From an uncultured Alphaproteobacteria bacterium (GTDB lineage Bacteria > Pseudomonadota > Alphaproteobacteria > HIMB59 > GCA-002718135), in assembly GCA_902517315.1 (NCBI GenBank), contig CABYBP010000020.1, positions 1 through 17,054 of the forward strand: DNA of 17,054 nt. Direction: 5' to 3'. Positions 1 through 17,054 of the stretch are shown in pieces. The notes under the pieces are model-generated. The model saw only the letters and a list, made by a program, of their open reading frames with translations. It was not told the DNA's origin and ran no database searches. A program made the position numbers and the translations under genes. Position 1 is the stretch's first letter; each line of letters starts with the position of its first letter.

Positions 1-1
1 A

Positions 2-613: not shown

Positions 614-643
614 ATTAAGCTGAAATAGTTTTAAATAGAGAAT

Positions 644-1966
644 ATGGCAAAAAATATATCTCTATCAACAATTAAAACTTTCAAAAATAAATTTCTAAGA
701 AATAATAAAAATACAGCATCAAGAAATGCATTAATTAAAAATGATTTAGCTAATGTTGCACTCAATTGGGAAAACTTTAGTAAAATCAATCATAATTTTT
801 CTAATCTAATAAAAAAAGAACTTCCTGCAACAAACCAAATGGCATCAGGTAGATGTTGGGGATTTGCAGGATTAAATCTTATGCGTTTGCAAGTTGTTGA
901 TAGCCTTGAATTAAATACATTTGAGTTTTCACAAAATTATTTCATGTTTTGGGATAAGTTAGAGAAAGCAAACTATTTTTTAGAGAATATTGTCAAATCA
1001 AGAGATGAATCATATGAGAGCAGATTAATTACCCATCTTTTAAAAGCACCTGTGCAAGATGGCGGACAGTGGGATATGTTTGTAAACTTAATCAACAAGT
1101 ACGGTGCAGTACCTAAAGATGTAATGCCTGAAACAAATCATAGCAGTAAATCTGGTGCCATGAATTATATTCTTACTCACAAATTAAGAGAGTTTGCTTC
1201 TATACTAAGAAAAAAACCAGCAAAAAATTCTGCAACTCTTAAAAAAGACATGATGGAAACAATTTATAATTTACTAGCAATGTTCCTTGGTCAACCACCA
1301 GATGTTATCAATTGGTCTACTAGAAATAAAGACAATAGACACATTGTCATTTCAGATATGACACCAATTGATTTCTGCAAAAAATATGCTGATATCAATA
1401 TTAAAGATAAAGTTTGCTTAATTCATGCTCCAATGAGCAATAAAAAATTTAATACAATGTACACAGTTGAATATCTTGGTAACGTTGTTGAGGGACAAAT
1501 TATTAAATATTTAAATGTAGATATTAAAGAATTAAAAAAATCTGCGATGGACTCAATAAAAAACAATGAAGCTGTATGGTTTGGTTGTGATGTTGGGAAA
1601 TGTTTTAGTCGTGATATGGGTGTTCTTGATATGGGCATTTACGACTACGAAAATGTCTTCCAAACTTCATTTAAGATGAATAAACAAACTCGTTTAGAGT
1701 ACGGTGATAGTGAAATGACTCATGCCATGCTCTTAACAGGAGTGGATATTAAAAAAAGAAATTCAACTAAATGGAAAATTGAAAATAGCTGGGGAACAAA
1801 AAGTGGTAATCAAGGGTACATGATGATGACCGATGAATGGTTTGATGAATATACCTATGAAGTTGTCATTGATAAAAAATATATAAACAAAAGACTTCTA
1901 AAATACTTAGATATGGAACCAGTAGCACTTGCACCTTGGGATCCAATGGGTGCTTTAGCTAGATAA
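644..1966 (+). CDS. pepC: Cysteine aminopeptidase C / bleomycin hydrolase family (peptidase C1B)
   Basis: This 440-residue protein has the papain-like catalytic triad in the order and context of the C1B (PepC/bleomycin hydrolase) family: Cys71 in NQMASGRCWGFA, His360 in EMTHAMLLTG and Asn381 in KIENSWG. Its length matches the family (about 440-450). The C-terminus reads PWDPMGALAR; in this family the tail lies in the active-site cleft and sets aminopeptidase specificity. There is no signal peptide, so a cytosolic role trimming peptides from their N-termini is expected, probably as a hexamer. The ATG at 644 follows a weak purine stretch (tagaga). The next small gene begins one nucleotide after its stop. 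The family is best known from Gram-positive bacteria, Bacteroidota and eukaryotes, so its presence in a streamlined alphaproteobacterium may reflect transfer (inference). Confidence 0.93.
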   Translation: MAKNISLSTIKTFKNKFLRNNKNTASRNALIKNDLANVALNWENFSKINHNFSNLIKKELPATNQMASGRCWGFAGLNLMRLQVVDSLELNTFEFSQNYFMFWDKLEKANYFLENIVKSRDESYESRLITHLLKAPVQDGGQWDMFVNLINKYGAVPKDVMPETNHSSKSGAMNYILTHKLREFASILRKKPAKNSATLKKDMMETIYNLLAMFLGQPPDVINWSTRNKDNRHIVISDMTPIDFCKKYADINIKDKVCLIHAPMSNKKFNTMYTVEYLGNVVEGQIIKYLNVDIKELKKSAMDSIKNNEAVWFGCDVGKCFSRDMGVLDMGIYDYENVFQTSFKMNKQTRLEYGDSEMTHAMLLTGVDIKKRNSTKWKIENSWGTKSGNQGYMMMTDEWFDEYTYEVVIDKKYINKRLLKYLDMEPVALAPWDPMGALAR

Positions 1967-1967
1967 G

Positions 1968-2195
1968 TTGAATAAAGAAAACGCATCTAAAATTTGGAAA
2001 TTAATTCAAGAAACAGGCGACTTTTTAAAAGGAAAATTATCTGATCACCCTAATCATCCAAAAGGAAGAAATTCTTATGCTCATGTTGCCTTGGAAGTAA
2101 AAAATTATTTTGGTATGACTTATAAAGACATCCCTGATGAAAAATTTAATGAAGTTATTAATTATCTTGAAGAGATAAAATCTAATCCTGAGTAG
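1968..2195 (+). CDS. Small conserved-looking protein of unknown function (75 aa)
   Basis: The ORF uses a TTG start one base after the peptidase stop codon, which suggests translational coupling. I do not firmly recognise the family. The protein is soluble and charged. It has a central HPNHPKGRNSYAH segment and a C-terminal stretch (FGMTYKDIPDEKFNEVINYL) that looks like a short winged or helical unit. That last stretch resembles the 'fgv.sYkeIp..kF.e.i.fl' pattern I know from the C-terminal regions of phage antirepressor-like proteins (ORF6C/P22_AR_C type), but this is pattern memory, not a search. Its 3' end overlaps the convergent MFS gene by 14 nt. No ATG precedes in frame, so the TTG start is inferred from spacing and from the Asn-Lys-Glu start of a regular helix. 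Confidence 0.6.
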   Translation: MNKENASKIWKLIQETGDFLKGKLSDHPNHPKGRNSYAHVALEVKNYFGMTYKDIPDEKFNEVINYLEEIKSNPE

Positions 2196-2757
2196 CTATT
2201 CTTTGATTACCCTGAATGGGTAAGAAAATAATAAAAATTGAAACTATAGCCATCATTATTGCATTAATTAAAAATAAATAAGTAAACTCTAAAGTTATAG
2301 AGTATATTTCTGAAATTAAGAATACCGAAATTGGTCCCGATCCAAATGCGAGAATAAACTTAATTCCGTATACAACACCATGATACTTTTGAGGTGTAAA
2401 CCTACCAAGTAGAAGATTTTCTGTAGGCAGAATACTTGCATTAAATATGGCAGCTAGAATACATAAGACGACTAAAGAATAGCTAGATATGTAAGCTATA
2501 CCAAGATAACATGGAAACTGAAGAAATATACCAATTAAGTAAATAGTTTTTAAATTAAATCTATCAGCAAGTAAGCCTCCAACAAATGTTGTAGCACCAG
2601 AAATAAAATAAATAATTGCTATCATAAATCCAATTTGAATAGAGTTTATATTACCAATACGTATTTCAAAAACTTTTGGTAAGGCTGTTTGAGTATTGTG
2701 AAAAGATAATCCAAGGGCAAACATTGATAAAAGCATTATTAATGCAATTAAAATCAT
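2182..2757 (-). CDS. MFS transporter, C-terminal half (split gene)
   Basis: This 191-residue protein has about six hydrophobic helices and looks like the second half of a 12-helix major facilitator superfamily permease. A motif-A-like loop, GGLLADRF (residues 60-67), sits between its second and third hydrophobic segments, as expected after the internal duplication of MFS proteins. Its ATG overlaps the stop of the N-terminal half by 4 nt (ATGA, 2754-2757). Both halves together give ~393 residues, the usual length of a whole MFS protein. Adding one nucleotide near the repeated gaaatgaaatga would join the frames, so it is either a frameshifted gene (real or sequencing error) or a two-subunit transporter with coupled translation. 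The substrate is unknown. Confidence 0.8.
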   Translation of the reverse strand: MILIALIMLLSMFALGLSFHNTQTALPKVFEIRIGNINSIQIGFMIAIIYFISGATTFVGGLLADRFNLKTIYLIGIFLQFPCYLGIAYISSYSLVVLCILAAIFNASILPTENLLLGRFTPQKYHGVVYGIKFILAFGSGPISVFLISEIYSITLEFTYLFLINAIMMAIVSIFIIFLPIQGNQRIATQD

Positions 2758-3362
2758 TTCATTTCGTGAATGATCTTGCTGATCATTTTTAATAAATAAT
2801 TTTTGTAAGATATTTTATCTATTAAAATTAAGTAAATAAGAATAAACCCAATAATAATTGATATTAAACCAGGTAATATAAAAGCTAATTGCCAGTTTAG
2901 TAATTCTGTCAGAGTGCCGGCTACAAATGCGCCAGATCCTATCCCTACTCCACCAAAAATACCATTTACACCAAGTGCTCTTCCTTGTTTATTTGCTGCA
3001 TGAATCACCCAAGGAATACCTACTGGATGATAAATAGAACAGAAAAGTCCAAGAAGTGATAAGGAAAAAAATAATAAAGGAACCGATGTGCTAAGGCCAC
3101 ATAAAATGGAAGCTACTCCCATTCCAATAAACATAATTGTCATTGTTCCTGAACGAGACCATTTATCACTTAACCAACCAAAAGGTATTGCTCCTAAACC
3201 AATTAGTAGAGCTCCAAGAGACCATAATTTAATTAATTGATCATAAGAAATATTCCAGTCTTTTTCAATCGTCAGAACGATTACAAAATAAAATGCTGCG
3301 AACATATGCATAAGTGCATGACCTATTGAAGAAAATAGGAGTGTATAAAAAGTATTATTCAA
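2754..3362 (-). CDS. MFS transporter, N-terminal half (split gene)
   Basis: This 202-residue, roughly six-helix protein carries the diagnostic MFS motif A between helices 2 and 3, GWLSDKWSR (residues 62-70), with Asp66 and Arg70. The later LFCSIYHPVGI stretch (about residues 106-116) recalls the 'xxFHPxG' signature of fosmidomycin-resistance-like MFS exporters, so an efflux or small-molecule carrier is a reasonable guess. The protein stops after a positively charged loop (LLKMISKIIHEMK), where the cytoplasmic linker between helices 6 and 7 should be. The C-terminal half follows at once in the -1 frame. Its start lies 8 nt inside the end of msrB, so it belongs to the same transcript. Confidence 0.82.
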   Translation of the reverse strand: MNNTFYTLLFSSIGHALMHMFAAFYFVIVLTIEKDWNISYDQLIKLWSLGALLIGLGAIPFGWLSDKWSRSGTMTIMFIGMGVASILCGLSTSVPLLFFSLSLLGLFCSIYHPVGIPWVIHAANKQGRALGVNGIFGGVGIGSGAFVAGTLTELLNWQLAFILPGLISIIIGFILIYLILIDKISYKNYLLKMISKIIHEMK

Positions 3363-3750
3363 ACTCTTCGTAATTAATAGAAAGAGAATTTACACAATAT
3401 CTTTTGCCGGTAGGTTCAGGACCATCATCAAAGACATGACCTAGATGGGCATCACATTTCGCACACATAATTTCAATACGCACCATTCCATGAGATCTAT
3501 CAGTCTCTATTTTAATTGCTTCAGGTGATATTTGTTCAAAAAAACTTGGCCATCCACAATAAGAATCATATTTTGTTGAACTATTAAATAATTCATTACC
3601 ACAGCATTTACATTTAAAAATACCACCATTAATAATTTCAAAATTTTTACCAGAAAAAGGAGGTTCTGTTCCCTTTTGTCTTGTTACAAAATATTCATCT
3701 TCTGTGAGAAGAGACTTCCATTCTTCATCAGTTTTAATTACTTTGTTCAT
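3355..3750 (-). CDS. msrB: Peptide methionine-(R)-S-oxide reductase MsrB
   Basis: MsrB reduces the R form of methionine sulfoxide in proteins, repairing oxidative damage in the cytosol. The 131-residue sequence is full length for a stand-alone MsrB. The zinc ligands are present as two CxxC pairs: Cys47/Cys50 (CKCC) and Cys96/Cys99 (CAKC). The catalytic Cys119 is in KRYCVNSLS, and Cys65 in the CGWPSF motif is the likely recycling cysteine. HLGHVFDDGPEPTGKRYC is the family signature. The start overlaps the EamA permease gene by 17 nt and the end overlaps the MFS gene by 8 nt, so it is translated from the middle of an operon. No MsrA is seen in the window. Confidence 0.97.
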   Translation of the reverse strand: MNKVIKTDEEWKSLLTEDEYFVTRQKGTEPPFSGKNFEIINGGIFKCKCCGNELFNSSTKYDSYCGWPSFFEQISPEAIKIETDRSHGMVRIEIMCAKCDAHLGHVFDDGPEPTGKRYCVNSLSINYEEFE

Positions 3751-4642
3751 TTTTAAATCTTATATTAGATAATATAATTCCTGTAATTATAAAAAAAACA
3801 CCTACAATATGAAATATTGCAAAACTCTCATTTAAAAAAGTTATTGCCCAAATTGCTGCAAAGACAGGTATAAAATGTAAAAATAAACCAGCTCTATTTG
3901 GCCCAATTAAATGTACACCTTTATTCCAACCAAAAAAAGCAGCAATACTTGCAAAAATAGCGACATAAATAATAATGAAAAAATCAGAAGATGATGAAAG
4001 TAAAAAAGTACCATAAAAAGATTCAAAAAGATAAAGTGGAATAATAAAAAATAAACCAATAATGATCATTACTTCCAAGCTTGCTAGTTGAGGAATTGAT
4101 GTATCCATCTTTTTTAACAACACAGAGTACAAGCACCAAGATATTACAGCGGCAAACATCCATATATCTCCAATAGTAAAATTAAGGGTATATAAATTAT
4201 TTAAATTTCCTTTTAAAATTATTGCTAATGCACCTAATAAAGATAAAATTATACCAATTAATTGTAGTTTAGAAATTTTAGTTCGAAACATTATCCAAGA
4301 GAAACCAATCATAATTACAGGTGCAGTTGATGCCATTATAGTTGAATTTAAAACTAAAGTTGTCTGCAATGAAATATATGTAAAGGAGTTAAATATTGTA
4401 ACACTTAATATACTTAATGTAGTCATTAGTAACAAATTTTCTTTATAATAGTTAAAATTTTCCATAATACTTTTAAAAGTAAAGGGTAAAAGTAATAGCA
4501 AAGCTAAAGACCATCTAAAAAAACTTAACTTAAAAGGTGAAAGGTCAGTTATATGAGCAACTTTTCCAAACAAGAAATTTCCTGACCAGAACAAAGAAGA
4601 GGCTGTTAACAATAAGACTGCTAACATTAAGTTTCTTGACAT
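3734..4642 (-). CDS. EamA/DMT-family permease
   Basis: This is a 302-residue integral membrane protein with about ten hydrophobic helices arranged as two EamA repeats, the layout of drug/metabolite transporter (DMT) superfamily carriers such as RhaT- and YdcZ-like exporters. The N-terminal SSLFWSGNFLFGKVA (residues 15-29) is the usual helix-1 signature. The second repeat starts near residue 155 (IGDIWMFAAVISWCLYSVLLKK). Such proteins usually export amino acids, metabolites or drugs; the substrate cannot be told from sequence. The ATG follows directly after the stop codon of the hydroxyacid dehydrogenase gene with no spacer. The gene ends inside msrB, which indicates tight translational coupling. 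Confidence 0.93.
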   Translation of the reverse strand: MSRNLMLAVLLLTASSLFWSGNFLFGKVAHITDLSPFKLSFFRWSLALLLLLPFTFKSIMENFNYYKENLLLMTTLSILSVTIFNSFTYISLQTTLVLNSTIMASTAPVIMIGFSWIMFRTKISKLQLIGIILSLLGALAIILKGNLNNLYTLNFTIGDIWMFAAVISWCLYSVLLKKMDTSIPQLASLEVMIIIGLFFIIPLYLFESFYGTFLLSSSSDFFIIIYVAIFASIAAFFGWNKGVHLIGPNRAGLFLHFIPVFAAIWAITFLNESFAIFHIVGVFFIITGIILSNIRFKNEQSN

Positions 4643-5515
4643 TTATTTATCTACAAGAGTCATAAGGGATGATGTATCAAACCTATTGCCTCCATTTTTT
4701 TGAACTTCTTCATAATATTTATCAACTATTTTTGTAACAGGAAGCATTGCACCATTTTTGTCAGCTTCATTAAAACAAATTGATAGATCTTTACGCATCC
4801 AATCTATGGCAAAACCATAATCAAATTTCCCATCAAGCATAGTTCTATATCTATTTTCCATTTGCCATGATTGAGCCGCTCCCTTGGATATAACGCTAAG
4901 CACCTTTTCCATATCCACATTCGATTTTTTTCCAAAAGCCATTGCTTCAGATAAGCCTTGCACTAATCCTGCAATACAAATTTGATTTATCATTTTAGCT
5001 ATTTGACCTGACCCAGATGGACCTATAAGTTCAACTGCTTTGCCATAAGATGCGAGAACTGGTCTTACAGTATTATAATCTTTTTCATCACCACCTATCA
5101 TAATGGAGAGAACACCATTTTCTGCACCTGCTTGACCACCGGATACAGGTGCATCAAGAAAACTCAATTTTTTATCTTTAAGTTTTTGATAGTAATTTCT
5201 TGCGATCTCTGCGGAAGCTGTTGTGTGATCAACAATAATTGATCCTTCAGCTACTTTTGAAAGAATTCCATCTTCACCTTCCATTACTTCAATAATATCT
5301 TTATCACGTCCAACACACATAAAAACAATTTCAGAATTTTGCGAAGCCTCACCAGGAGTTTTAGCCATGCTGCCTTTATACTCTTCAGCCCATTTTTCTG
5401 CTTTAGCAGTTGTTCTATTATAAACAGTTACATTATAACCTTTGTTTTGAAGATGACCTGCCATTGGATAACCCATTACACCTAAGCCAATAAAAGAAAC
5501 ATTTTTAATACTCAT
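4643..5515 (-). CDS. NAD(P)-dependent beta-hydroxyacid dehydrogenase (3-hydroxyisobutyrate dehydrogenase / tartronate semialdehyde reductase type)
   Basis: This 290-residue protein is full length for the beta-hydroxyacid dehydrogenase family. The N-terminal Rossmann motif is FIGLGVMGYPMAGHL (residues 9-22). The substrate-binding DAPVSGGQAGAENG lies at 121-134. The catalytic Lys174 is in GSGQIAKMINQ, and Lys242 sits in the conserved RKDL segment. Asn33-Arg34-Thr35 at the end of the second strand favours NADP(H) over NADH, as in glyoxylate or succinic-semialdehyde reductases of this family. The substrate could be 3-hydroxyisobutyrate, tartronate semialdehyde, glyoxylate or another short hydroxyacid; sequence does not decide. 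The ATG overlaps the stop of the upstream phosphatase gene (ATGA). Confidence 0.93.
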   Translation of the reverse strand: MSIKNVSFIGLGVMGYPMAGHLQNKGYNVTVYNRTTAKAEKWAEEYKGSMAKTPGEASQNSEIVFMCVGRDKDIIEVMEGEDGILSKVAEGSIIVDHTTASAEIARNYYQKLKDKKLSFLDAPVSGGQAGAENGVLSIMIGGDEKDYNTVRPVLASYGKAVELIGPSGSGQIAKMINQICIAGLVQGLSEAMAFGKKSNVDMEKVLSVISKGAAQSWQMENRYRTMLDGKFDYGFAIDWMRKDLSICFNEADKNGAMLPVTKIVDKYYEEVQKNGGNRFDTSSLMTLVDK

Positions 5516-6318
5516 GAATATTCTCCTAATTTTTCTAAAATTTTTAAATTCAAATCTTCTGAATTACTTACAATTAAATTCTTATTCTTTTTTGTAAAGT
5601 CATATTTATTTTGATCAAAATCTATATCGACACCACCTGCTTCTCTGACAAAAAGAATACCTGGAATATGATCCCAGGGCGATAGTTTTGATAAAATAGC
5701 AAAATTTCTAATCCCAATACCTATATCTATATATTCAAAGCCAATGCATCTATAAGAGTTAACTTCTTTAAATATGTTTTTAAAAACTTTTAACTTATCT
5801 TGAAATTCTGGTTCCCAATATTTTGTACTTATCGATCCTATAGTTTCTTCAATTATATTTTCACCTTTAGTAACAATTTTATTGTTATTGATAAAAGCAC
5901 CTTCATTTTCAATAGCTGAACACATAATTTTTTCTAGCGGCTTATATATCCAAGAATGTAAAATTTTTTCTTTAAATGTTAAGGCTATCATAATTGCAAA
6001 TTTATCCCTACCATTAGTAAAATTTGTTGTTCCATCTATTGGATCAACAGTCCAACAATATGCGTCTTCATTATAGAAATTTAATATATTTGCATTTCTA
6101 GAGTATTCTTCTTCACCTATAAAATTAGAGGAAGGTAAAATTTTTAACAAATTTTTTTTTAATTCTTTTTCAGCTTCTATATCTGCTATTGTTACTAAAT
6201 CTGATCCATTTTTATAATTAATGTCATTGTCTGATAAATTTTTGAATTTTGGTAAAATAATATTTTTACTTACTTTATAACAAATGTCCTCTATGTCTTC
6301 TTGCTTAATATTATCCAT
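5512..6318 (-). CDS. Inositol monophosphatase family protein
   Basis: This 268-residue protein has the metal-binding signatures of the IMPase/FBPase superfamily: GEEEYS at 68-73 (Glu69/Glu70 as metal ligands), DPIDGTTNF at 92-100 (Asp92, Ile94 carbonyl, Asp95) and the C-terminal LSPWDHIPGILFVREAGG (212-229, Asp216). It probably removes phosphate from a small sugar or inositol monophosphate, needing Mg2+. Family members include SuhB, histidinol-phosphate phosphatase and CysQ-like enzymes. The sequence does not fix the substrate, and I see no special marks of CysQ. It overlaps the aminotransferase gene by 8 nt at its start and the dehydrogenase gene by 4 nt at its end. Confidence 0.92.
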   Translation of the reverse strand: MDNIKQEDIEDICYKVSKNIILPKFKNLSDNDINYKNGSDLVTIADIEAEKELKKNLLKILPSSNFIGEEEYSRNANILNFYNEDAYCWTVDPIDGTTNFTNGRDKFAIMIALTFKEKILHSWIYKPLEKIMCSAIENEGAFINNNKIVTKGENIIEETIGSISTKYWEPEFQDKLKVFKNIFKEVNSYRCIGFEYIDIGIGIRNFAILSKLSPWDHIPGILFVREAGGVDIDFDQNKYDFTKKNKNLIVSNSEDLNLKILEKLGEYS

Positions 6319-7156
6319 TTATACACGCTTCAGTATACATTTCTGCTAGTTGCAATGTAATATTGCCAATTTTACCATTATTGATTTTTTTATTATCAAT
6401 TTTCAGAATGGGAGTAATAAAACTTCCAGAACTTGTTAAAAAAACTTCATCTGCATTAATTAATTGCCTATGAGTAAATTGTTTTTCTAATAATTTAAGT
6501 TTAGTTTTTTTTATAATTTTTAAAAGAGAAGTTCTAGTTACTCCTTTTAATATATCTGAATTAGCTGGGTGGGTGATTAAATTATTTTTTTTTATAATCC
6601 AAATATTTGAAGATGTGCCCTCAGTTACTATTCCATTTTGTATTAAAATTGCTTCATAAGCATTTTTCTTTTTGGCCATATTTGCTGCTATAATATTTGG
6701 AAGTAAATTTACTGTTTTAATATCACGTCTTTTCCATCGAAGATCTTGGTATGTAATAGTATTTACTCCTACAAATTTCTTCCCAGGTAAATTAAAACTT
6801 TTGTTTCTTGTGTATACAATAAAAGTTGGGATTAAATTTTTTTGATATTTATGTTCTCTAAATTGAATACCTCTTGTAATTTGTAAATATATTATACCAT
6901 TTTTTGTTTTATTTTTCTTTATTAGATTTAAAAAAATATTAATTACGTTTTTTTTATTGATTGTGAATTTAATTTCTAATTCACGAAGAGAATATTTTAA
7001 TCTCTTAAGATGAAAGTCTAAATCAATTACATTATTATCTAAAACTGCGATAACTTCATACACACTATCAGCAAATTGCAATCCTCTATCCTCAATATGA
7101 ATTTTTGCAGATTTAAAGTTTACAAATTTGTTATTTATAAAAGCAAAATTTGGCAT
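6311..7156 (-). CDS. dat: D-amino-acid aminotransferase (class IV, PLP-dependent)
   Basis: This 281-residue fold-type IV aminotransferase matches the usual length of D-alanine aminotransferase. The PLP-linking lysine is Lys147 in RRDIKTVNLLPN, matching the DIKSLNLL context of known Dat proteins. Glu179 in VTEGTSSNIW binds the pyridine nitrogen, and THPANSDILKGVTR binds the cofactor phosphate. The N-terminal IEDRGLQFADSVYEV is also typical. It interconverts D-alanine and D-glutamate with 2-oxo acids, giving D-amino acids for peptidoglycan or recycling them. Branched-chain aminotransferase IlvE is the nearest alternative, but the DIK and THPAN contexts favour Dat. It starts 4 nt after the trkA stop codon; a trkA-dat pairing is known to me from SAR11-type genomes. 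Confidence 0.92.
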   Translation of the reverse strand: MPNFAFINNKFVNFKSAKIHIEDRGLQFADSVYEVIAVLDNNVIDLDFHLKRLKYSLRELEIKFTINKKNVINIFLNLIKKNKTKNGIIYLQITRGIQFREHKYQKNLIPTFIVYTRNKSFNLPGKKFVGVNTITYQDLRWKRRDIKTVNLLPNIIAANMAKKKNAYEAILIQNGIVTEGTSSNIWIIKKNNLITHPANSDILKGVTRTSLLKIIKKTKLKLLEKQFTHRQLINADEVFLTSSGSFITPILKIDNKKINNGKIGNITLQLAEMYTEACING

Positions 7157-7160
7157 TAGA

Positions 7161-8525
7161 TTAAACTTTTGATAAAAGTTTCTCTAGTTTATTTATGCAG
7201 TTTGTTTCAGCAAAAAAAACAACATCATCATTCTCTTTAAAAATAGTTTGACTATTAGGGATTATAATTTTTTTATCTCTTACAATTGACCCAATACGAA
7301 TACCTTTTGGCAATTCTAACTCTTTAAGATTTTTATTGCAAAGAAATGATTCTGACTGAATATCAGCCTCTATTACTTCTCCAAAGCCTTCACCTATAGA
7401 ATAATCGTTTCTTATTTTTACACCTCTAACCTTTTCTAAAATTTTAGAAATAGTGATTATTTTTGGATCTATGGTCATATCAACACCAATATTAGACAAC
7501 AAGGATGAATAATTACTATTATTAATCAAAGTTATTGATGTATCAGCTCCTGCTCTTTTAGCGAGTAAGGATGATAGTATATTAACTTCATCGTCTTCTG
7601 TAATTGATATACAGTAGCCTGAATCTGATATGTTTACCTCTTCAAGTATCTGATTGTCCAGACCATCTCCACATGTCACTGTGATATTTTCCAAATTAGA
7701 CGCAAGAAATTCTGCGCGTTCTTTATTGGCTTCAATGAGTTCAGTTTTTATATATGTTTCAGAATTTTCAATTAATTGTGCAAGTGAAAATCCTATATTT
7801 CCACCACCAATTATCACAGCTTTTTTTGCCTGCAATTCTTGATGGCCAAATTCAGATAGCACGTCTGTCAAGTTATCAGTTTCCACAACTAGAAATATGG
7901 TATCTTTCTTTTCAATTTTGGTTGAAGAATTTACTGTAAATTTTTGATCACCTCTAAATATAAACATTATGTTAGCTAAATAGTCAGGAAATTTTTCTGA
8001 TAATTCTCTTACAGATAGACCTGAATGTAAAAAATTATCCTCACATTTTAATCCAATTAATTTCAATTTTTTATCTGATAATTCAACCATGTCTATTGTC
8101 CCAGGAGAAATTAATCTTCTAAATATACCATTAGCAACTTCTTGTTCGGGAGAAATAATTGCATCTATTGGGAAATTTTCATCATTATATAAATTTTTCC
8201 AATCATTTTTTAAATAATCTTGTTGTCTTATTCTTGCAATTTTCTTTTTTATTTTAAATAAAGAATGACCTATTTGACAAGTAACCATATTAGTTTCATC
8301 ACTCTTAGTAACTGCAATTAATATTTCACAATCATTTGCACCAGCGTTGTCTAAAACTGATGGCATACTAGGAATACCATTTATTGTTTTCACATCCAAT
8401 GTTTCAGATACTTTATTTAATCTTTTTTCATCTTCGTCAATAACTGTAACTTCAAAATTTTCACGTGATAATTTATCAGCTATGCTATATCCAACATCTC
8501 CAGCACCACAAATAATTGTTTTCAT
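7161..8525 (-). CDS. trkA: Trk potassium uptake regulatory protein TrkA
   Basis: TrkA is the cytosolic NAD(H)/ATP-binding gating subunit of Trk-type K+ uptake systems. The 454-residue protein shows the expected two-fold repeat of RCK-N (Rossmann) and RCK-C domains. The first nucleotide-binding motif is GAGDVG (7-12) and ends in the acidic VID(30). The second is GGGNIG (240-245). RCK-C domains follow at about 145-220 and 370-454. The membrane subunit TrkH is not in the window. The gene lies 7 nt after the ntrX stop codon, which agrees with the common alphaproteobacterial order ntrB-ntrC-ntrY-ntrX-trkA. That order is strong evidence that the ntrX fragment beside it is in its native place. Confidence 0.96.
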   Translation of the reverse strand: MKTIICGAGDVGYSIADKLSRENFEVTVIDEDEKRLNKVSETLDVKTINGIPSMPSVLDNAGANDCEILIAVTKSDETNMVTCQIGHSLFKIKKKIARIRQQDYLKNDWKNLYNDENFPIDAIISPEQEVANGIFRRLISPGTIDMVELSDKKLKLIGLKCEDNFLHSGLSVRELSEKFPDYLANIMFIFRGDQKFTVNSSTKIEKKDTIFLVVETDNLTDVLSEFGHQELQAKKAVIIGGGNIGFSLAQLIENSETYIKTELIEANKERAEFLASNLENITVTCGDGLDNQILEEVNISDSGYCISITEDDEVNILSSLLAKRAGADTSITLINNSNYSSLLSNIGVDMTIDPKIITISKILEKVRGVKIRNDYSIGEGFGEVIEADIQSESFLCNKNLKELELPKGIRIGSIVRDKKIIIPNSQTIFKENDDVVFFAETNCINKLEKLLSKV

Positions 8526-8532
8526 TGATTAG

Positions 8533-8916
8533 TTATTCTACTTTAATATCTAGTGATTTAAATTTTCTATAAAGAGCAGTTCTCTCCATTCCTGTAAATT
8601 CAGAAACTTTAGTAATATTACCATTAAATCTTTTAATTTGCGATATTAAATAATTTTTTTCGAACTTATATCTAGCTTCTTTAAGAGACAAATCTAGAGA
8701 ATTATTTGAAGAATTTGACGCAGTTTCATCCCCCATTTGTAGAGCTAAATCATCTACCTCTAACTCTTTTATATTTTGATCTTGATTAAGTATTAAACTT
8801 TTCTCGACATAATTAATTAGTTGAGATATATTTCCAGGCCAATCATACATTTGTAACTTAGTTAAGGCGCCTGAAGAAAATTTAAAATTTAAATTTCCTC
8901 CACTTTTAATTTTTCT
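8533..8916 (-). CDS. ntrX: NtrX response regulator, 3' fragment cut at the rearrangement junction
   Basis: This is the C-terminal ~125 residues of the NtrX family. It includes the end of the AAA+ ATPase domain, LQMYDWPGNISQLINYVEKSL (the WPGN and arginine-finger region of sigma54-type activators), and a Fis-type helix-turn-helix at the end, NGNITKVSEFTGMERTALYRK. The upstream receiver and most of the ATPase domain are missing. The reading frame stays open to 9072, but residues before about KIKSGGN are antisense to pdhB and do not resemble NtrX, so the gene is cut near 8905-8916. The matching 5' part is at 16487-17054. trkA follows 7 nt downstream as expected. Confidence 0.9.
   Translation of the reverse strand, partial: RKIKSGGNLNFKFSSGALTKLQMYDWPGNISQLINYVEKSLILNQDQNIKELEVDDLALQMGDETASNSSNNSLDLSLKEARYKFEKNYLISQIKRFNGNITKVSEFTGMERTALYRKFKSLDIKVE
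8899..8916. other. Rearrangement or chimera junction: ntrX(-) fused to pdhB(+)
   Basis: Minus-strand ntrX coding sequence and plus-strand pdhB coding sequence meet head to head here. Read on the plus strand from 8902, the bases give T-F-N-F-S-M-Q-A-I-D-Q, the internal E1-beta sequence that normally follows Met-Thr-Phe-Asn-Phe. Upstream of 8902 the pdhB frame gives S-S-I and then a stop at 8890-8892. Read on the minus strand up to about 8914, the bases still make sense as NtrX (KIKSGGN). The shared stretch cttttaattttt is AT-rich and belongs plausibly to both genes, as expected for joining through microhomology. Confidence 0.88.
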
Positions 8917-9642
8917 ATGCAAGCAATTGATCAAATCATTAATTCTGCTGCAAAAACACTTTACATGTCTGGAGGACAAATTAATTGTCCTATTGTTTTT
9001 AGAGGTCCAAATGGTGCTGCAGCGCAAGTAGCTGCACAACATAGTCAGGATTTCTCTTCTTGGTATTCTCAAGTGCCAGGTTTAAAAGTTATTGCACCAT
9101 CTACTCCATATAATGCAAAAGGTTTGCTGCGTTCTGCTATATCAGATCCAAATCCAGTGATTTTTCTAGAAAATGAAATTCTTTATAGTTTAAAAGGTCC
9201 TGTTAATAATGATGTTAACTTCTCAATACCTATTGGAAAAGCAAATATTGAAAAAGAAGGAAAAGATTTAACAATTGTCACTTACTCTATAATGTTACAG
9301 AAATCGAAAGAAGCGGCATTAAGATTAAAAGAGGAATATAATTTAGATGCAGAAATTATTGATTTACAAACTTTAAGACCTTTAGATACGGAAACAATAT
9401 TAAATTCAGTTAAAAAAACTAATAGACTAATCACTGTTGAAGAGTCTTGGCCATTTGGCAGTGTTGGTTCTGAAATTTCAAATATTGTTCAAAGGGATGC
9501 ATTTGATTATTTAGATTCACCAGTGATAAAAGTTAATAGTGCTGATGTTCCAATGCCATACTCATTAAGCTTAGAAAAATTATACCTTCCTCAAGTTGAT
9601 GATATTATAAATGCAGCAAAGAAAGTAAGTTATATAAAATAA
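8902..9642 (+). CDS. pdhB: Pyruvate dehydrogenase E1 component, beta subunit (5'-truncated)
   Basis: This is the C-terminal ~246 residues of the E1 beta subunit of pyruvate dehydrogenase, which with E1 alpha and thiamine diphosphate decarboxylates pyruvate and acetylates the E2 lipoyl group. Recognisable segments are MQAIDQIINSAAKTLYMSGG, FRGPNGAAAQVAAQHSQDF, the transketolase-C start DLTIVTYS and the late WPFGSVGSEI. The first ~80 or more residues, with the start codon and part of the thiamine-diphosphate site, are missing. In this family the ATG at 8917 is an internal Met preceded by TFNF, and TFNFS is still encoded at 8902-8916. The 5' part is lost at the junction. The pdhC ATG follows the stop with no spacer. 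Confidence 0.93.
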   Translation, partial: TFNFSMQAIDQIINSAAKTLYMSGGQINCPIVFRGPNGAAAQVAAQHSQDFSSWYSQVPGLKVIAPSTPYNAKGLLRSAISDPNPVIFLENEILYSLKGPVNNDVNFSIPIGKANIEKEGKDLTIVTYSIMLQKSKEAALRLKEEYNLDAEIIDLQTLRPLDTETILNSVKKTNRLITVEESWPFGSVGSEISNIVQRDAFDYLDSPVIKVNSADVPMPYSLSLEKLYLPQVDDIINAAKKVSYIK

Positions 9643-10872
9643 ATGGCCATTAAAGTTTTAATGCCTGCATTATCCCCCACAATGTCAGAGGGTGTAATAA
9701 ACAAGTGGTTAGTTAATATTGGTGATAACGTTTCAGCTGGAGATATATTAGCAGAAATAGAAACAGATAAAGCAACAATGGAAGTTGAGGCAGTTGATGA
9801 GGGAGAAATTACTCATTTACTTGATACAACACCAGATAAACAAATTTCTGTTAACTCTGTCATTGCTTTAATAAATGGTAGCAAAGATGAAAGATTAGAA
9901 GATTATAATGATAAAGATCAAACTGTAAGCATTGATGAAAAAAATGAAGCTCCATTTGAAACTCAAACAAATACAGAAGTAGATAAAAATCAAATAATAG
10001 AAAGAAGTAAAGATTCAAACACTAGTCAAAATGCAAATTTTGCTTCACCTTTTGTTAAAAAATTCTCTAAAGATAATAATATTGATCTAACTCTTATTAA
10101 AGGATCTGGCCCTGATGGTAGGATAATAAAAAAAGATATTCAAAATTTTGAACTACAAATTAATGATGAAAATATTTCTGTAATAGAGCCTTCCAGTATT
10201 AGAAAAATAATTGCTGAAAGAACAACAAGAACAAAAAATGAGGTTCCACATTTTTATCTTACAATTGAAACAAGAATGGATAAGCTAATAAATTTAAGAA
10301 AAAAAATTAATTTAAATAGTGATGTTAAAATCTCTTTTAATGATCTTATTGTTAAAGCATGCGCAATGGCAATAGCCAAAAATCTGGAAACAAATATTTC
10401 TTGGGTGAATGGTAAAATCCACCAATATAAAAATATTGATATTGCTATAGCCGTAGCGTTAAAAGAAGGATTGATTACACCTATTGTCAAAGAAGCTGAT
10501 AAAAAAGGATTATCTGAAATCTCTACAGAGATTAAATCACTAGTAAAAAAAGCTAATCAAAATAAATTATTACCAGAAGAGTATAGTGGAGGCTCAATAA
10601 CTATCTCAAATTTAGGCATGTTTGGAATCACAGAATTTAAAGCAATTATTAATCCTCCACAATCAAGTATTATTGCAGTTGGATCTATAATTGAAAAACC
10701 CGTTATTAACGCTGGCAGTATTGAAATAGGACATACGATGAAATCTACTATTTCAGCAGATCACAGATCATTAGATGGTGCGGTTGCGGCAAAATTACTC
10801 AAAGATTTCAGCGATATTTTAGAGCATCCCTTTCAAATTTGGTTGAATAGCTTGGATATGGAAGTTATTTAA
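9643..10872 (+). CDS. pdhC: Dihydrolipoyl acetyltransferase, E2 of pyruvate dehydrogenase
   Basis: E2 carries the acetyl group on a lipoyl arm and transfers it to coenzyme A. The 409-residue protein shows all three parts. An N-terminal lipoyl domain carries Lys43 in [12 protein letters not shown] polar, Asp/Glu/Asn-rich linker (80-130) leads to the peripheral subunit-binding domain at 132-170 ([29 protein letters not shown]). The acetyltransferase domain follows, with [19 protein letters not shown] and the active-site [10 protein letters not shown] (His374, Asp378). The last ~13 residues ([13 protein letters not shown]) extend beyond the usual 'LExP' ending. It abuts pdhB without a spacer. 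No lpd (E3) gene follows; lipA starts 5 nt later. Confidence 0.96.
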
Positions 10873-10877
10873 GAGAT

Positions 10878-11813
10878 ATGGCAGATTCAAGACATCCAGA
10901 AAAAATTAAAAATAAAATTAATCTAATTCCAAAAAAACCTGATTGGATAAGAGTGAAAGCTCCAACTTCTAAATTTTTTAAAGAAACAAATAAGCTTTTA
11001 AAGGATAAAAAAATAGTTACTGTGTGTGAAGAAGCTGCTTGCCCTAACATAGCTGAATGTTGGCAAAAAAAACATGCTACCTTTATGATTTTAGGTGATA
11101 TCTGTACCAGAGCCTGTGCATTTTGTAATATCAAAACTGGCAAACCTCAGTTTATTGATCATGGTGAAGCAATCAGAATTGCTGAGTCAGTAAAACAATT
11201 AAATTTAGAACACGTTGTAATAACTAGTGTTGATAGAGATGATTTAATAGATGGAGGAGCAATGCATTTTATTAATGTGATTGATTCAATAAAATCATTA
11301 AATCCAAATTGTACAATCGAAATTTTAACTCCAGATTTTAAAAATAAACCTGAAGCAATAGATATACTATCAAAAAATCTCCCAGACGTTTTTAATCATA
11401 ATTTAGAAACAGTTCCAAGATTATACCCATCAATCCGACCAGGATCACGTTACTTTATTAGTTTAAATTTACTAAGCCAAATAAAAGATAAAAATCCAAA
11501 TATATTTACTAAATCCGGATTAATGGTTGGTCTTGGTGAAAAAAAAGAAGAAGTTTATCAAGTAATGGATGATTTACGGGCAGCAGATGTAGATTTTATT
11601 ACAATTGGTCAATATTTACCTCCAACGCCTAAGCATGCTAAATTAGAAAAATTTATTACTCCAAAGGAATTTGATGATTATAAAAAAATGGCTTATGCAA
11701 AAGGCTTCTTAATGGCTGCTTGTTCACCACTAACGCGATCAAGCTATCACGCTTCAGATGATTTTAAAATCATGCAAGAAAATAGGAAAAACAAACTTTA
11801 TTCTATTCAATGA
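10878..11813 (+). CDS. lipA: Lipoyl synthase LipA
   Basis: LipA is a radical-SAM enzyme that inserts two sulfur atoms into the octanoyl group on lipoyl-domain proteins such as PdhC. Both iron-sulfur sites are intact: the auxiliary cluster Cys50, Cys55 and Cys61 ([12 protein letters not shown]), and the radical-SAM CxxxCxxC at Cys76, Cys80 and Cys83 (CTRACAFC). The C-terminal RSSYHA (287-292) contains the serine that ligates the auxiliary cluster. The 311-residue length is normal. The start gives MADSRHPEK followed by [10 protein letters not shown], as in other alphaproteobacterial LipA proteins, which supports this ATG. It is placed directly after the E2 gene whose product it modifies and overlaps ratA by 4 nt (ATGA). 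Confidence 0.97.
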
Positions 11814-12247
11814 AATCATCAAATAGGGAGGAAATTGTCGATCACGACGCTAAAGGTTTATTCGATATTGTATTAGATGTTGAGAGTTATCCATATTTTA
11901 TTCCCTGGTGTTCAGCAATGAGAATACATTCCAAAAATAAAAACGAAATATATGCGGACATGGTTGTTTGGTATAAATATTTTATGCCTCAAACATTTGG
12001 GTCTCATGTTTCATTTGATAAAAAAAAACTTTCAATTACTACAACTTATATTGAAGGGCCTTTAAAAGATTTAAAAACTAATTGGATTTTTGAATCACTT
12101 AAAAAAAATCAAACACTAATTCATTTTAATGTTGAATTTGAGTTTAAAAGATTTTTTCATCAAAAAATTGCTGAAGCTTTTTTTCCTTTAATTGAAAATA
12201 AAATGATTGAATCATTTAAAATCCGTGCAGATGAAATATTAGATTAA
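11810..12247 (+). CDS. ratA: RatA / COQ10-like START-fold (SRPBCC) protein
   Basis: This 145-residue protein belongs to the polyketide-cyclase/SRPBCC group. The [17 protein letters not shown] segment (residues 27-43) is the family signature shared by RatA and mitochondrial COQ10. The fold ends in a long helix ([21 protein letters not shown]). COQ10-type proteins bind ubiquinone and aid respiratory electron transfer; E. coli RatA was described as a ribosome-association toxin. In Alphaproteobacteria the gene commonly follows lipA, as here, and no antitoxin partner is visible, so a quinone-related housekeeping role is more likely (inference). It is coupled to lipA by an ATGA overlap and converges on pncC with a 9-nt overlap, leaving no room for an intergenic terminator. 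Confidence 0.9.
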
Positions 12248-12703
12248 TTTATTAATTTTTCTAAAAATAAAATCTCTAGTTTTTCTCTGAATATCTAATC
12301 TTTTTCCTTTATATTTTTTTTTGAAAATATAATTATTTTTATTAATTTTAATTCCGATATACACTAATCCTACTGGCTTTAACTTTGTCCCACCATTAGG
12401 ACCCGCGATACCAGTCGTTGAAATACATATTTCTGTTTTTTCATTTTTATACAGACCATTTATCATGTCCTCTGCTACTTCTTTACTTACAGCTCCAAAT
12501 TTAGAGAGATTAGTTTTTGAAACAGATAAATATTTAGATTTAGCTTTATTAGAATAACTAATAACTCCATAAGAGAAAATTTTTGAAACTCCAGTATTTT
12601 TAGTAATAGTATTAGCTATTAGCCCGCCTGTGCATGACTCAGCAACTGAAATTGAGATATTTTTATTTATTAACTTATCTATAATTTTTTTAATAATAGG
12701 CAT
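12239..12703 (-). CDS. pncC: Nicotinamide-nucleotide amidase (CinA C-terminal domain protein)
   Basis: This 154-residue protein is the stand-alone CinA C-terminal domain, which hydrolyses NMN to nicotinate mononucleotide in pyridine-nucleotide recycling. Signatures include SVAESCTGGLIANTIT (19-34), YGVISYSNKAK (45-55), FGAVSKEVAEDM (69-80) and STTGIAGPNGGTKLKPVGLVYIG (95-117). No N-terminal MoaB-like domain is present, as is usual in Alphaproteobacteria, where the short form lies next to pgpA and ispDF. Its start overlaps the end of pgpA by 14 nt. It is the last gene of the ispDF-pgpA-pncC operon. Confidence 0.95.
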   Translation of the reverse strand: MPIIKKIIDKLINKNISISVAESCTGGLIANTITKNTGVSKIFSYGVISYSNKAKSKYLSVSKTNLSKFGAVSKEVAEDMINGLYKNEKTEICISTTGIAGPNGGTKLKPVGLVYIGIKINKNNYIFKKKYKGKRLDIQRKTRDFIFRKINKLI

Positions 12704-13166
12704 TTAGAATATAAAGAATTATTATTGTATATATTCCTGCTATTAAATCATCAAGAATTACGCCAAAAGCTGATTTAAGTCTCTTATCTACTATGTTGGC
12801 TGGAAAAATTTTCAATATATCAAAAAAACGAAATAAAATAAAAATTAATACCATTGTAACATAAGGATTTATAATTTTAATTTGATCATAAAATATTAAA
12901 ATTAAGTATATTCCTAAGAATTCATCAATAACTATTATTTTTGAGTCATGTGATTGCGTGTGTGAGGAAAATTGATTAATAAAAAATAATGATAGTAAAA
13001 AAATTATAATAAAAACAAATACAAATATTTCTAAAGAAATGATTTTGTATTCAATAATAGGAAATAAAATAAGTATGGATAAAAAAGATGCAAAAGTTCC
13101 TGGCGGTATTAATTTAATATATCCAGCAAATGATAAAGATACAAAAAAATTAGCTAATTTTATCAT
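12690..13166 (-). CDS. pgpA: Phosphatidylglycerophosphatase A
   Basis: PgpA removes phosphate from phosphatidylglycerol phosphate to give phosphatidylglycerol in the inner membrane. The 158-residue protein has about four hydrophobic helices. It carries the PgpA motifs: PPGTFAS (21-27), DEFLG (81-85), LFRFFDILKIFPAN (111-124) and the acidic metal-binding VILDDLIAG (136-144, Asp139/Asp140). It lacks a cleavable signal. The start overlaps ispDF by 17 nt and the end overlaps pncC by 14 nt, so translation is likely coupled. The cluster ispDF-pgpA-pncC is a familiar alphaproteobacterial grouping. Confidence 0.94.
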   Translation of the reverse strand: MIKLANFFVSLSFAGYIKLIPPGTFASFLSILILFPIIEYKIISLEIFVFVFIIIFLLSLFFINQFSSHTQSHDSKIIVIDEFLGIYLILIFYDQIKIINPYVTMVLIFILFRFFDILKIFPANIVDKRLKSAFGVILDDLIAGIYTIIILYILNAYY

Positions 13167-14289
13167 CTGTTATATGAACTATTGACTCGGCTGCAATTCC
13201 TTCACCATTACCAATAAAACCAATCTTCTCATTTGTAGTTGCTTTAATAGACACAGAGCTATTTTTAATTTGAAGTAATGTTGAAATATTTTTTATCATT
13301 TTTGAAACATACTTATTAATTTTAGGTTTTTCAGCTATTATATTAATATCTAAATTGATTATAGAATAACCTTTTTCTTTAAGTTTATTTCTACAATAAA
13401 TAATAAATTTAGATGAATTTGCATTTTTCCATTTTTTATCTGTGTTGGGAAAGTGATAACCTATGTCTCTCATAGAAAGTGCTCCAAAAATACTATCACA
13501 TATTGCATGTAGTACAACGTCTGCATCAGAATGACCAATTAATTTAGAGAAAGGGATTCTAATGCCTCCTAATTTCAATCCATTTTTAGTTTTTTTATCA
13601 ATTCGATGAATATCGTAACCAATACCGTATTTTGTTATTTGCTTTCTGTATAAATTAAATAACTGAATATCTTCTGGATAAGTAATTTTAATATTATTTT
13701 TCTCACCTTTAATAAAATTTATTTTTATTTTTGATTTTTGTAATAATCCTGAATCATCATTAAATTCAAAATTTTTATATTTGATATGTTGTTTTAATAT
13801 CATATTATAATTAAAACCCTGAGGCGTTTGTACGTTAATTGCTTTCGTTTCCAATTTACTTTTTTTTATCAATTGTCTGTCATTATATTCAACATATGGA
13901 ATTACATTAGTGATTTTATCTAATTTAGAAATAATTTTATTCATTAATTTATTACTACATAAAGGACGTGCAGCATCATGTATTACTACTTTCTTAATTT
14001 TAAATTTTTTTAAATTTTTTAGAGCATTGAAAGAAGAAATTTGTCTTGTATTTCCAGGTTTTGAAAATATAATTTTTATTTTCTCAGATATTACTTTTTG
14101 ATTAAAGTAAGTATTTTGATATTTTTTATCTATTGAAATATTAATAATATCAATGTTTGATAAGTCTAAATTTGAAATAAAATAATTTACAAAATTTGTA
14201 TTCCCAATTTTTAAGAACTGTTTAGGAATTTTTTGACCAAATCTCTTTCCTTTTCCTCCAGCTAGAATTACAAGTGCATTTTTCATCAT
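13150..14289 (-). CDS. ispDF: Bifunctional IspDF (MEP cytidylyltransferase / MECDP synthase)
   Basis: IspDF joins two steps of the non-mevalonate isoprenoid pathway in one chain of 379 residues. The IspD half (1-216) makes CDP-methylerythritol. It has the nucleotide-binding LAGGKGKRFGQKIPKQF (9-25), VVIHDAARPL (101-110) and TPQGFNY (155-161). The IspF half (220-379) forms the cyclic diphosphate. Its metal ligands are Asp226, His228 and His261 in YDIHRI and DADVVLHAICD, and it ends with IKATTNEKIGFIGNGEGIAA. The fusion is typical of Alphaproteobacteria. Its N-terminus is MM; the second ATG at 14286 is a possible alternative start. It is divergent from ntrY, 60 nt apart. Confidence 0.96.
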   Translation of the reverse strand: MMKNALVILAGGKGKRFGQKIPKQFLKIGNTNFVNYFISNLDLSNIDIINISIDKKYQNTYFNQKVISEKIKIIFSKPGNTRQISSFNALKNLKKFKIKKVVIHDAARPLCSNKLMNKIISKLDKITNVIPYVEYNDRQLIKKSKLETKAINVQTPQGFNYNMILKQHIKYKNFEFNDDSGLLQKSKIKINFIKGEKNNIKITYPEDIQLFNLYRKQITKYGIGYDIHRIDKKTKNGLKLGGIRIPFSKLIGHSDADVVLHAICDSIFGALSMRDIGYHFPNTDKKWKNANSSKFIIYCRNKLKEKGYSIINLDINIIAEKPKINKYVSKMIKNISTLLQIKNSSVSIKATTNEKIGFIGNGEGIAAESIVHITDDKIS

Positions 14290-14349
14290 TTTAATTTATA
14301 GATATTATTATTTAATAATTATTATTTGAAAATTTAACTAAAGTATACA
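14290..14349. promoter_or_regulatory. Divergent intergenic region between ispDF and ntrY
   Basis: These 60 nt separate two divergently read genes and must hold the promoters of both if they are transcribed here. The DNA is almost all A and T. A perfect 12-bp palindrome (taataattatta, 14313-14324) is present, and a TTGAAA at 14326-14331 looks like a -35 box, but no -10 box stands at the right distance before the ntrY GTG. I cannot name a promoter with confidence. It is the largest non-coding gap in the window. Confidence 0.35.
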
Positions 14350-16494
14350 GTGTTTGACCTATCAAAATTACTTAAATCTATTCATTTATCGAGACTATCT
14401 TTTTATTTTTTAATCTTTTTAATCGTATTGAGTTTCTCGATTACATTTTATTTAATGCTTCCGAATAATGATTTGGTAAAAGACCCTAGAAGATTACAAT
14501 TTTTTTTATTGGCTGATGTTATTTTTGTCATTTTATTGATTTCAATAATTATTAGACAAATTGTCCTTATTTTAGTTAGACGAAGAAAAAGTTATGACGA
14601 ATCTCGATTATACATAAAATTCGTTAATTTATTTGCTGCTATGGCTTTAGGTCCAGCTATTGGTTTAGTTATTATTACATCACTTTTCTTCAATTTAGAA
14701 CTAAGAACTTGGTATGGAGATGCAGTAAGAGACGCGGTTGTAAATTCAAATATAGTGGCAAAAAATTATGAAAATGAGATACAAGCAGAATTAGTATCTG
14801 ATACTCAGTTAATTATGAGAGAAATTTTAAAAGCTTCTCAAAATAATGAAGTAAATGTTCAGTCAATTAGAGTAGCTCTAAGTGAATTTATTAATTTAAG
14901 AACAATTTCAAGTATTTATATTTTTAATACTGAAGGAAATATTTACTTAAGTCTTAAAGATCCAAATAATGAAAATTTTTCTCTCCCTTCAAATGAAATA
15001 TTTAAAGTTGTTAATCAAAATCGAGTTTACATTTTTCAATTAGATAAAAATTCTATAACTGCTTATAAAAAAATAAACTTTTTAAATGATGTTTACATGC
15101 AGGTTAATAGAAATTTAAATACAAATATTTGGGATCATATTAGTGCTACAAAAGAGGCATTTGAAATTTATACTATGAAAGAAGAGGAAAGCTCAGGAAT
15201 ACAAATAACTTATTCAATGATATTCGTTCTTTTCTCTATTTGCTTTATATTAGTGGCAATTTTGATTGGTTTTAATTTAGCTAGCAATCTTAGTAAGCCA
15301 ATTACAAACTTAATTAAATCAGCAAATAAAATATCAGAGGGAGATTTTGATGCTAAGGTCAGTGAAATAGATCAATTTCAGGAGATAAAAGTATTATTAT
15401 CATCTTATAATAAAATGATTTCTGAAATTGAGAATAAACAAAATGAATTAATATCAAAGAGTCATGAAGATGAAGAAAAAAGAATATTCATAGAGGCGAT
15501 ATTAAGTTTGTTAACAATAGGTGTAATTTCTATAGATAAAAATTTCAATATTTTATTATTCAATAAAACTTTAACAAAACTATTTAGAAATACTAAAACT
15601 TTTCAAATAAATGAAAATTTTCTCTCCTATTTCCCAGAATGGAAAAAAATATTTGAAAATTTTGAAACTTCAAATAAAGTATTATTAAATTTTCAATATG
15701 ATTTTATATTATTTGATGATCAAAGAAATTTTAATATTAGAATTATTAAAGAGATTAATGATAATAAAATTGAAGGATATGTTGTTGCTTTAGATGACAC
15801 TACATCTCTAATTTTGGCAGAAAAACATGCAGCTTGGTCTGATATAGCAAGAAAGATAGCCCACGAAGTTAAAAATCCTCTAACCCCAATTAAGCTTTCT
15901 GCAGAAAGAATAGAAAAAAAATTTTTAGATGCAAATACAGATAAGGAAGATATTTCACTTTTAACTAAAACAATATCAAGACAAGTAGATGATATCGGAA
16001 AGTTAGTTGATGAATTTTCATCTTTTGCAAGAATGCCTGAAGCAGAGATCAAGTTTGACAACCTGACAAAATGTTTAGAAGATGCGTACCTCCTCTATTT
16101 TAATACAAGGAAGGATGTAAAGCTTAATTTAATTAAACCTGAAAATGATATTTATTTTCACTTTGACACTCTTCAAATCTCAAGATGTTTTAATAATTTA
16201 ATTAAAAATGCTATTGAAGCTGTCGAAAAAATACCCAATCCTGCAGTCGAATTATTAATGACTGTTGATGCTAAAAATCTAAAAATTGAAATAAAAGATA
16301 ATGGATTGGGAATTGATGGAAAAATGTTGAGTAAAATATTTGAACCCTATTTTACAACTAAAACAAAAGGAACTGGCCTTGGATTATCTATAGTAAAAAG
16401 AATTATAGAAGATCATGGTGGTAAAATAAAGATTGAGAAAAATAAAAATATGGCTGGAACAACATCCATAATTAGTTTTGAATATAATGCATAA
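14350..16494 (+). CDS. ntrY: Sensor histidine kinase NtrY
   Basis: NtrY is the membrane sensor kinase partner of NtrX, linked in Alphaproteobacteria to nitrogen, redox and envelope responses. The 714-residue protein starts with GTG. Order of parts: membrane helices near 16-37, 52-77 and 93-115; an extracytoplasmic sensor region of about 115-285; another helix at 287-311; a HAMP domain (about 311-365, SKPITNLIKSANKISEGDF); a PAS-like region (375-485); HisKA with phospho-acceptor His505 in IARKIAHEVKNPLTPIK; and the HATPase with N-box Asn616/Asn620, G1 DNGLGIDG (650-657) and G2 KGTGLGLS (673-680). All key residues are present. It overlaps ntrX by 8 nt, and ntrB/ntrC do not precede it here. Confidence 0.95.
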   Translation: MFDLSKLLKSIHLSRLSFYFLIFLIVLSFSITFYLMLPNNDLVKDPRRLQFFLLADVIFVILLISIIIRQIVLILVRRRKSYDESRLYIKFVNLFAAMALGPAIGLVIITSLFFNLELRTWYGDAVRDAVVNSNIVAKNYENEIQAELVSDTQLIMREILKASQNNEVNVQSIRVALSEFINLRTISSIYIFNTEGNIYLSLKDPNNENFSLPSNEIFKVVNQNRVYIFQLDKNSITAYKKINFLNDVYMQVNRNLNTNIWDHISATKEAFEIYTMKEEESSGIQITYSMIFVLFSICFILVAILIGFNLASNLSKPITNLIKSANKISEGDFDAKVSEIDQFQEIKVLLSSYNKMISEIENKQNELISKSHEDEEKRIFIEAILSLLTIGVISIDKNFNILLFNKTLTKLFRNTKTFQINENFLSYFPEWKKIFENFETSNKVLLNFQYDFILFDDQRNFNIRIIKEINDNKIEGYVVALDDTTSLILAEKHAAWSDIARKIAHEVKNPLTPIKLSAERIEKKFLDANTDKEDISLLTKTISRQVDDIGKLVDEFSSFARMPEAEIKFDNLTKCLEDAYLLYFNTRKDVKLNLIKPENDIYFHFDTLQISRCFNNLIKNAIEAVEKIPNPAVELLMTVDAKNLKIEIKDNGLGIDGKMLSKIFEPYFTTKTKGTGLGLSIVKRIIEDHGGKIKIEKNKNMAGTTSIISFEYNA

Positions 16495-17054
16495 AGTTTT
16501 AATTATTGATGATGAAAAGGATATTTGTTTTCTTATTTCAGAAATTTTAAATGATGAAAATTATAATACATCTATTGCGCTCAATTCTGATGAGGCAATT
16601 AGTAAATTTAATGAAATTAAACCTGATTTAGTTATTTTAGATGTTTGGCTATCTAACAGTAAATTAGATGGAATTGAGATTTTAAAAGAATTCAAATTGA
16701 TAGATAGTAATATTCCAATTATTATTATAAGCGGTCATGGAACTGTTGACCTTGCAGTAAAATCTATAAAAAATGGAGCATACGACTTTTTAGAAAAACC
16801 ATTCAATAGTGATAAATTAATTATTCTTACTAAGAGAGCAATAGAAAGTTCATCATTATTGAGTGAAAATAAAAATTTAAAAGATTCCTTAATAAAAACA
16901 ACACCATTAATTGGGAATTCAGAATTTATTAAAAAAATTAATAAACATTTAAATGAGCAAAGTTCAAGTAATTCTAGACTATTAATCGAAGGATCATTCG
17001 GAACAGGAAAAAAACATTTTACAAATTTATTACATCAAAACTCACAATATAAAG
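16487..17054 (+). CDS. ntrX: NtrX response regulator, 5' part (runs off window)
   Basis: The first 189 residues of NtrX start 8 nt inside the end of ntrY and run past the window edge without a stop. The receiver domain is complete: acidic pair Asp8/Asp9, phospho-acceptor Asp52 in VILDVW, Ser82 in IISGHGT, and Lys104 in FLEKPF. The start of the AAA+ domain follows, with the P-loop EGSFGTGKKHF (168-178). The lysine after GK replaces the Ser/Thr of a classical Walker A motif; NtrX and NtrC-type proteins commonly have Glu at that place. A full NtrX is about 450-460 residues, so roughly 140 residues are missing between this part and the 3' fragment at 8533-8916. Confidence 0.93.
   Translation, partial: MHKVLIIDDEKDICFLISEILNDENYNTSIALNSDEAISKFNEIKPDLVILDVWLSNSKLDGIEILKEFKLIDSNIPIIIISGHGTVDLAVKSIKNGAYDFLEKPFNSDKLIILTKRAIESSSLLSENKNLKDSLIKTTPLIGNSEFIKKINKHLNEQSSSNSRLLIEGSFGTGKKHFTNLLHQNSQYK

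Follow-up and report, generated by a model that had tools for sequence, protein, structure and literature searches.

A head-to-head join of ntrX and pdhB in DNA of the HIMB59 lineage, most likely an inverted chimera of whole-genome amplification

Chimeric molecules formed during multiple displacement amplification (MDA) have been described in two sets of data. In the report of Lasken and Stockwell 2007 (PMC1855051), 475 chimeras came from a single E. coli cell after amplification, and 406 of them were inverted. In 337 of the 406 the two segments lay less than 10 kb apart, inverted chimeras becoming rarer with distance within this range, and complementarity of at least two bases was present in 93.5% of these closely spaced inverted joins. 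In the phi29 MDA data of PMC4595205 the length of the overlap peaks at 6 nt, with most overlaps 5 to 8 nt long, and the joined segments are most often about 250-300 nt apart, the distances running from 0 to more than 5,000 nt.

The window, the whole stretch of 17,054 nucleotides analysed here, contains a join between the genes of the response regulator NtrX and of the pyruvate dehydrogenase E1 beta subunit (pdhB). Like the chimeras of Lasken and Stockwell (PMC1855051), it is inverted, connects sites less than 10 kb apart and has a short complementary overlap. Those chimeras were observed in individual reads of a single E. coli cell, whereas the present one apparently stands in an assembled contig and is known from the contig alone. 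The join is very probably (at about 0.93) an amplification artefact, an inverted chimera made in vitro in phi29-type MDA of a single-cell genome.

The HIMB59 lineage, formerly called AEGEAN-169, includes AG-893-E15, a single amplified genome of GORG-Tropics (PMC12416821). Seventeen of the 18 closest named loci of the window belong to AG-type isolates with NODE contig names and one to a metagenome bin; AG-893-A21 and AG-893-G20, of the same name series as AG-893-E15, are among the close relatives. The record titles of 9 of the 17 AG-type relatives contain 'MAG', which is a point against a single-cell origin. Judging only by the names of its relatives, the window would derive from MDA-amplified single-cell DNA. 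A literature search for chimeric inversion or synteny in SAR11 single amplified genomes returned no papers.

Structure of the junction and its flanks

The reference for the window was G001, the nearest genome compared, with which it has 44% of sampled words in common. Positions 1-8907 align to the minus strand of G001 in a single block (contig 4, 109470 down to 100564; 8908 columns, two single-base gaps, 95.9% identity), and positions 8902-17054 align to the plus strand, again in a single block (92022 up to 100174; 8153 columns, gap-free, 94.4% identity). There is a single breakpoint, the rest of the 17 kb being unrearranged relative to G001. At this point the 3' part of ntrX, on the minus strand, meets the 3' part of pdhB, on the plus strand, head to head. 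The two opposite-strand blocks directly confirm the inverted join proposed in a first-pass annotation of the DNA. They also sharpen its limits: pdhB begins at 8902, as had been stated, but ntrX extends exactly to 8907 and not to about 8914, and the short stretch that fits both genes does exist but comprises 8902-8907 only, not the whole AT-rich stretch 8899-8916. The two segments, lying on opposite strands of G001, have the inverted orientation of MDA inverted chimeras, and the spacing of their breakpoints in G001, 8,542 bp, is below the distance of about 10 kb that is characteristic of them. The features are listed in Table 1.

Table 1. Features of the window; gene names are presumptive, based in part on Pfam hits
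Feature	Coordinates	Strand	Content
Left arm	1..8907	-	ntrX 3' end, trkA, class IV aminotransferase, inositol phosphatase family, NAD-binding dehydrogenase, EamA transporter, SelR domain protein, split MFS transporter, C1-like peptidase, topA 3' end; colinear with G001
ntrX 3' part, cut at junction	8533..8907	-	Native residues 323-446 (AAA lid and Fis-type HTH); Pfam AAA_lid_14, HTH_8
Junction microhomology, 6 bases	8902..8907		Common to the native ntrX and native pdhB sites (G001)
pdhB 3' part (pyruvate dehydrogenase E1 beta)	8902..9642	+	Native residues 214-459; Pfam Transket_pyr (from profile position 87), Transketolase_C
Right arm (fold-back loop if the join is a chimera)	8902..17054	+	pdhB 3' part, pdhC, lipA, coq10-type protein, cinA, ORF 12690-13166, ispDF, ntrY, ntrX 5' part; colinear with G001
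ntrX 5' part, same gene	16478..17053	+	Residues 1-192; Pfam Response_reg and start of Sigma54_activat

The ntrX gene, intact in G001 (446 aa), is cut after residue 322, and its last 124 residues stand reversed at the join. Its 5' part is found behind ntrY at the right end of the window, in agreement with the native order. The 389 bp that separate the end of the window from the ntrX breakpoint, encoding residues 193-322, are absent from the window. The position of residues 1-192 behind ntrY, at the end of the window opposite to the left arm, is not mentioned in the first-pass annotation and gives the geometry of the event. The pdhB gene is cut after residue 213 of 459. Its intact G001 copy carries a lipoyl domain, and the copy in the window has neither this domain nor the front of the pyrimidine-binding domain. 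The 179-aa frame listed on the minus strand at 8533-9072 is a hybrid, the first part of which is antisense to pdhB and the second part NtrX.

Phage or plasmid origin of the DNA was set aside, as 19 of the 20 scanned frames have Pfam domains with housekeeping, transport or signalling roles; the frame at 1968-2195 has no Pfam domain, and 12690-13166 was outside the set of 20. Several smaller features of the arms were recorded. The MFS transporter (2182-3362, minus strand) is represented by two overlapping frames, 2182-2757 and 2754-3362, where G001 has one frame of 393 aa; a one-base length difference from G001 lies near 2796, and the frameshift may have arisen as an error of sequencing or amplification, or it may be a genuine mutation. 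Frames of 61-113 aa run antisense inside conserved genes (e.g. 8347-8532 on the plus strand and 15720-16061 on the minus strand) and look like chance frames. Over 151 bases the DNA of the pdhC lipoyl domain (9653-9803) matches the start of G001 pdhB at 77% identity, so that the neighbouring pyruvate dehydrogenase genes pdhC and pdhB (the latter in its lipoyl-bearing G001 form) have similar lipoyl domains.

The overlap at the join was counted directly on the native sites of relatives, the window itself being devoid of the native sites of this strain. It measures six bases in 6 of the 9 relatives with both sides readable (G001, L034, L035, L036, L039 and L042), three bases in two (L038 and L041) and zero in the more distant L044; the three relatives with a shorter overlap count against the chimera. 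So counted, it lies, L044 excepted, within the short complementary overlap (2-21 nt) by which MDA chimeras are recognized. Inverted joins placed at random at this locus, 200,000 in each of two settings, have a mean overlap of 0.8-0.9 bases; at least six shared bases occur in 0.35% of those made within 1 kb of both sites and in 0.42% of those made over the whole region.

Native order and search for the join in related genomes

The native order of the locus in G001 is pdhB, pdhC, lipA, coq10-type protein, cinA, an unscanned ORF, ispDF, ntrY, ntrX, trkA and aminotransferase, onwards to topA. A 1.2 kb query spanning the join matched 95 of the 102 genus genomes. The order was counted on the 150 matches listed, which came from 86 genomes: both sides were listed for 64, on one contig in 58 and on different contigs in 6, and one side only was listed for 22. 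Among these matches all 58 genomes that have the two sides on a single contig, G001 being one of them, show the native arrangement, and no match in the 86 genomes crosses the join. The breakpoint spacing in the 58 genomes is 8,534-8,587 bp, an approximate range, as alignment ends vary, and the first-pass estimate of two sites within about 10 kb of each other thus holds in G001 and in the other genomes of this set. The stretch between pdhB and ntrX, used as an 8 kb query, found matches in 88 of the 102 genomes: in 71 the alignment runs unbroken for at least 7.8 kb, and in the other 17 the match is partial. In the 18 closest loci (L034-L051) the pdhB side is always kept, and 12 of them also contain the ntrX-trkA side, in its native position.

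The same fusion was sought in relatives, a comparison that the first-pass annotation had called for, and was observed in none. Even when as many as 2 mismatches were tolerated, the junction pattern was absent from all 102 genus genomes. With two free bases, it has no match in the collections genome_contigs and viral_contigs, from which the genome of the window itself or a very near one may be left out. None of the 80 pdhB loci from genome_contigs crosses the join, in a DNA comparison sensitive for close loci only. Over these genomes, collections and loci the join is private to one sample, as an MDA chimera would be. A real inversion could have been common to at least one independent genome, and no such genome was found, although an inversion private to one cell would likewise leave no trace of this kind.

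The rival to be weighed against this pattern is that microhomology-mediated repair truly inverted about 8.5 kb of the chromosome in this cell or strain. Joins at microhomologies do occur in vivo, and the window would have the same geometry if it contained one end of a simple inversion reaching from pdhB to ntrX. Such an event would, however, cut two genes that are intact in G001, ntrX and pdhB, the latter a neighbour of pdhC and lipA, and it would depart from the native order of all 58 informative genomes among the matches listed and from every relative and collection searched for the junction. The frames are open up to the join, and the DNA identity to G001 is 97% on the pdhB side and 92% on the ntrX-trkA side; open frames and high identity together give no sign of decay. 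The second end of an inversion should also leave a reciprocal junction, the site of which lies beyond the end of the window. It was sought as a pattern of 21 bases with up to 2 mismatches, the reversed pattern serving as the control. This gave 30 matches in 27 of the 102 genus genomes, none of them exact, versus 22 of 102 genomes for the control, and by their coordinates 4 of the 30 lie at the native ntrX site (G082, G085, G088 and G099). Comparison of the window with its own minus strand, with E up to 1, revealed no long inverted repeat able to drive an inversion; the longest match listed, 52 columns at 79% identity, is distant from the join. Recombination sites and RNA elements were also sought by tRNA and Rfam scans of the window, neither of which had a hit. 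An inversion breaking both E1 beta and NtrX would be a private, probably short-lived mutation of one cell of a marine lineage, and we regard it as very improbable.

Origin of the join

The MDA chimera, which was also the first explanation offered by the first-pass annotation, is supported by the native order in the relatives, by the short overlap and by the published signature of MDA. In the phi29 data (PMC4595205) the reported overlaps peak at the same 6 nt as is found here, whereas the span of 8.5 kb is well beyond both the reported peak at 250-300 nt and the range in which the distances mainly fall, 0 to about 5,000 nt. Being long in comparison with the published distances, the span counts mildly against an artefact.

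An origin in vitro is inferred, as are the polymerase and the direction in which it worked, and the join would have been formed as follows. A new strand, copying the native locus leftwards, would stop in pdhB, and its 3' end would be displaced by branch migration. About 6 matching bases would then allow this end to re-anneal inside ntrX, at a distance of 8.5 kb, to the 5' strand displaced within the same branched molecule, and synthesis would continue outwards into ntrX, trkA and the sequence past them. Because a strand growing to the left via ntrY to pdhB should, by the published model, displace a strand that still carries ntrX, re-annealing there would give this join. Read on the other strand, the product would have trkA and the 3' part of ntrX head to head with the 3' part of pdhB. 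It would have the shape of a lollipop: starting in pdhB, it would pass ntrY and ntrX and then return into the same ntrX-trkA stretch.

To an assembler such a fold-back into ntrX-trkA would be a repeat, so that a contig would be expected to end near the ntrX breakpoint. If the window is taken to be a whole contig, its right end, 389 bp before the predicted branch point and not at it, gives the artefact weak, after-the-fact support. One published single-cell pipeline trims 100 bp from each contig end (PMC5519541).

The third explanation is a computational misassembly, in which two native contig ends were connected via a short common sequence without any chimeric molecule. Assemblers can produce false joins, and the genus genomes are fragmented, with about 10-170 contigs each. 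The usual word lengths of assembly, however, far exceed the mere six bases that the two sites have in common, and reads crossing the join should therefore have existed. The cut, moreover, lies inside two genes, and no long inverted repeat was found at the join. Misassembly is very improbable, the least probable of the three explanations. The MDA chimera has a difficulty of its own at this step: an assembler normally favours native reads, and the chimera must therefore have dominated the local coverage.

Consequences for the reading of the gene content

As most likely an artefact, the join tells nothing new about the living organism. It does call for caution, as a mechanical listing of open reading frames yields here a pdhB that lacks its lipoyl domain, together with the hybrid frame of 179 aa, and these could pass for gene loss or gene fusion in an ocean bacterium with a small genome.
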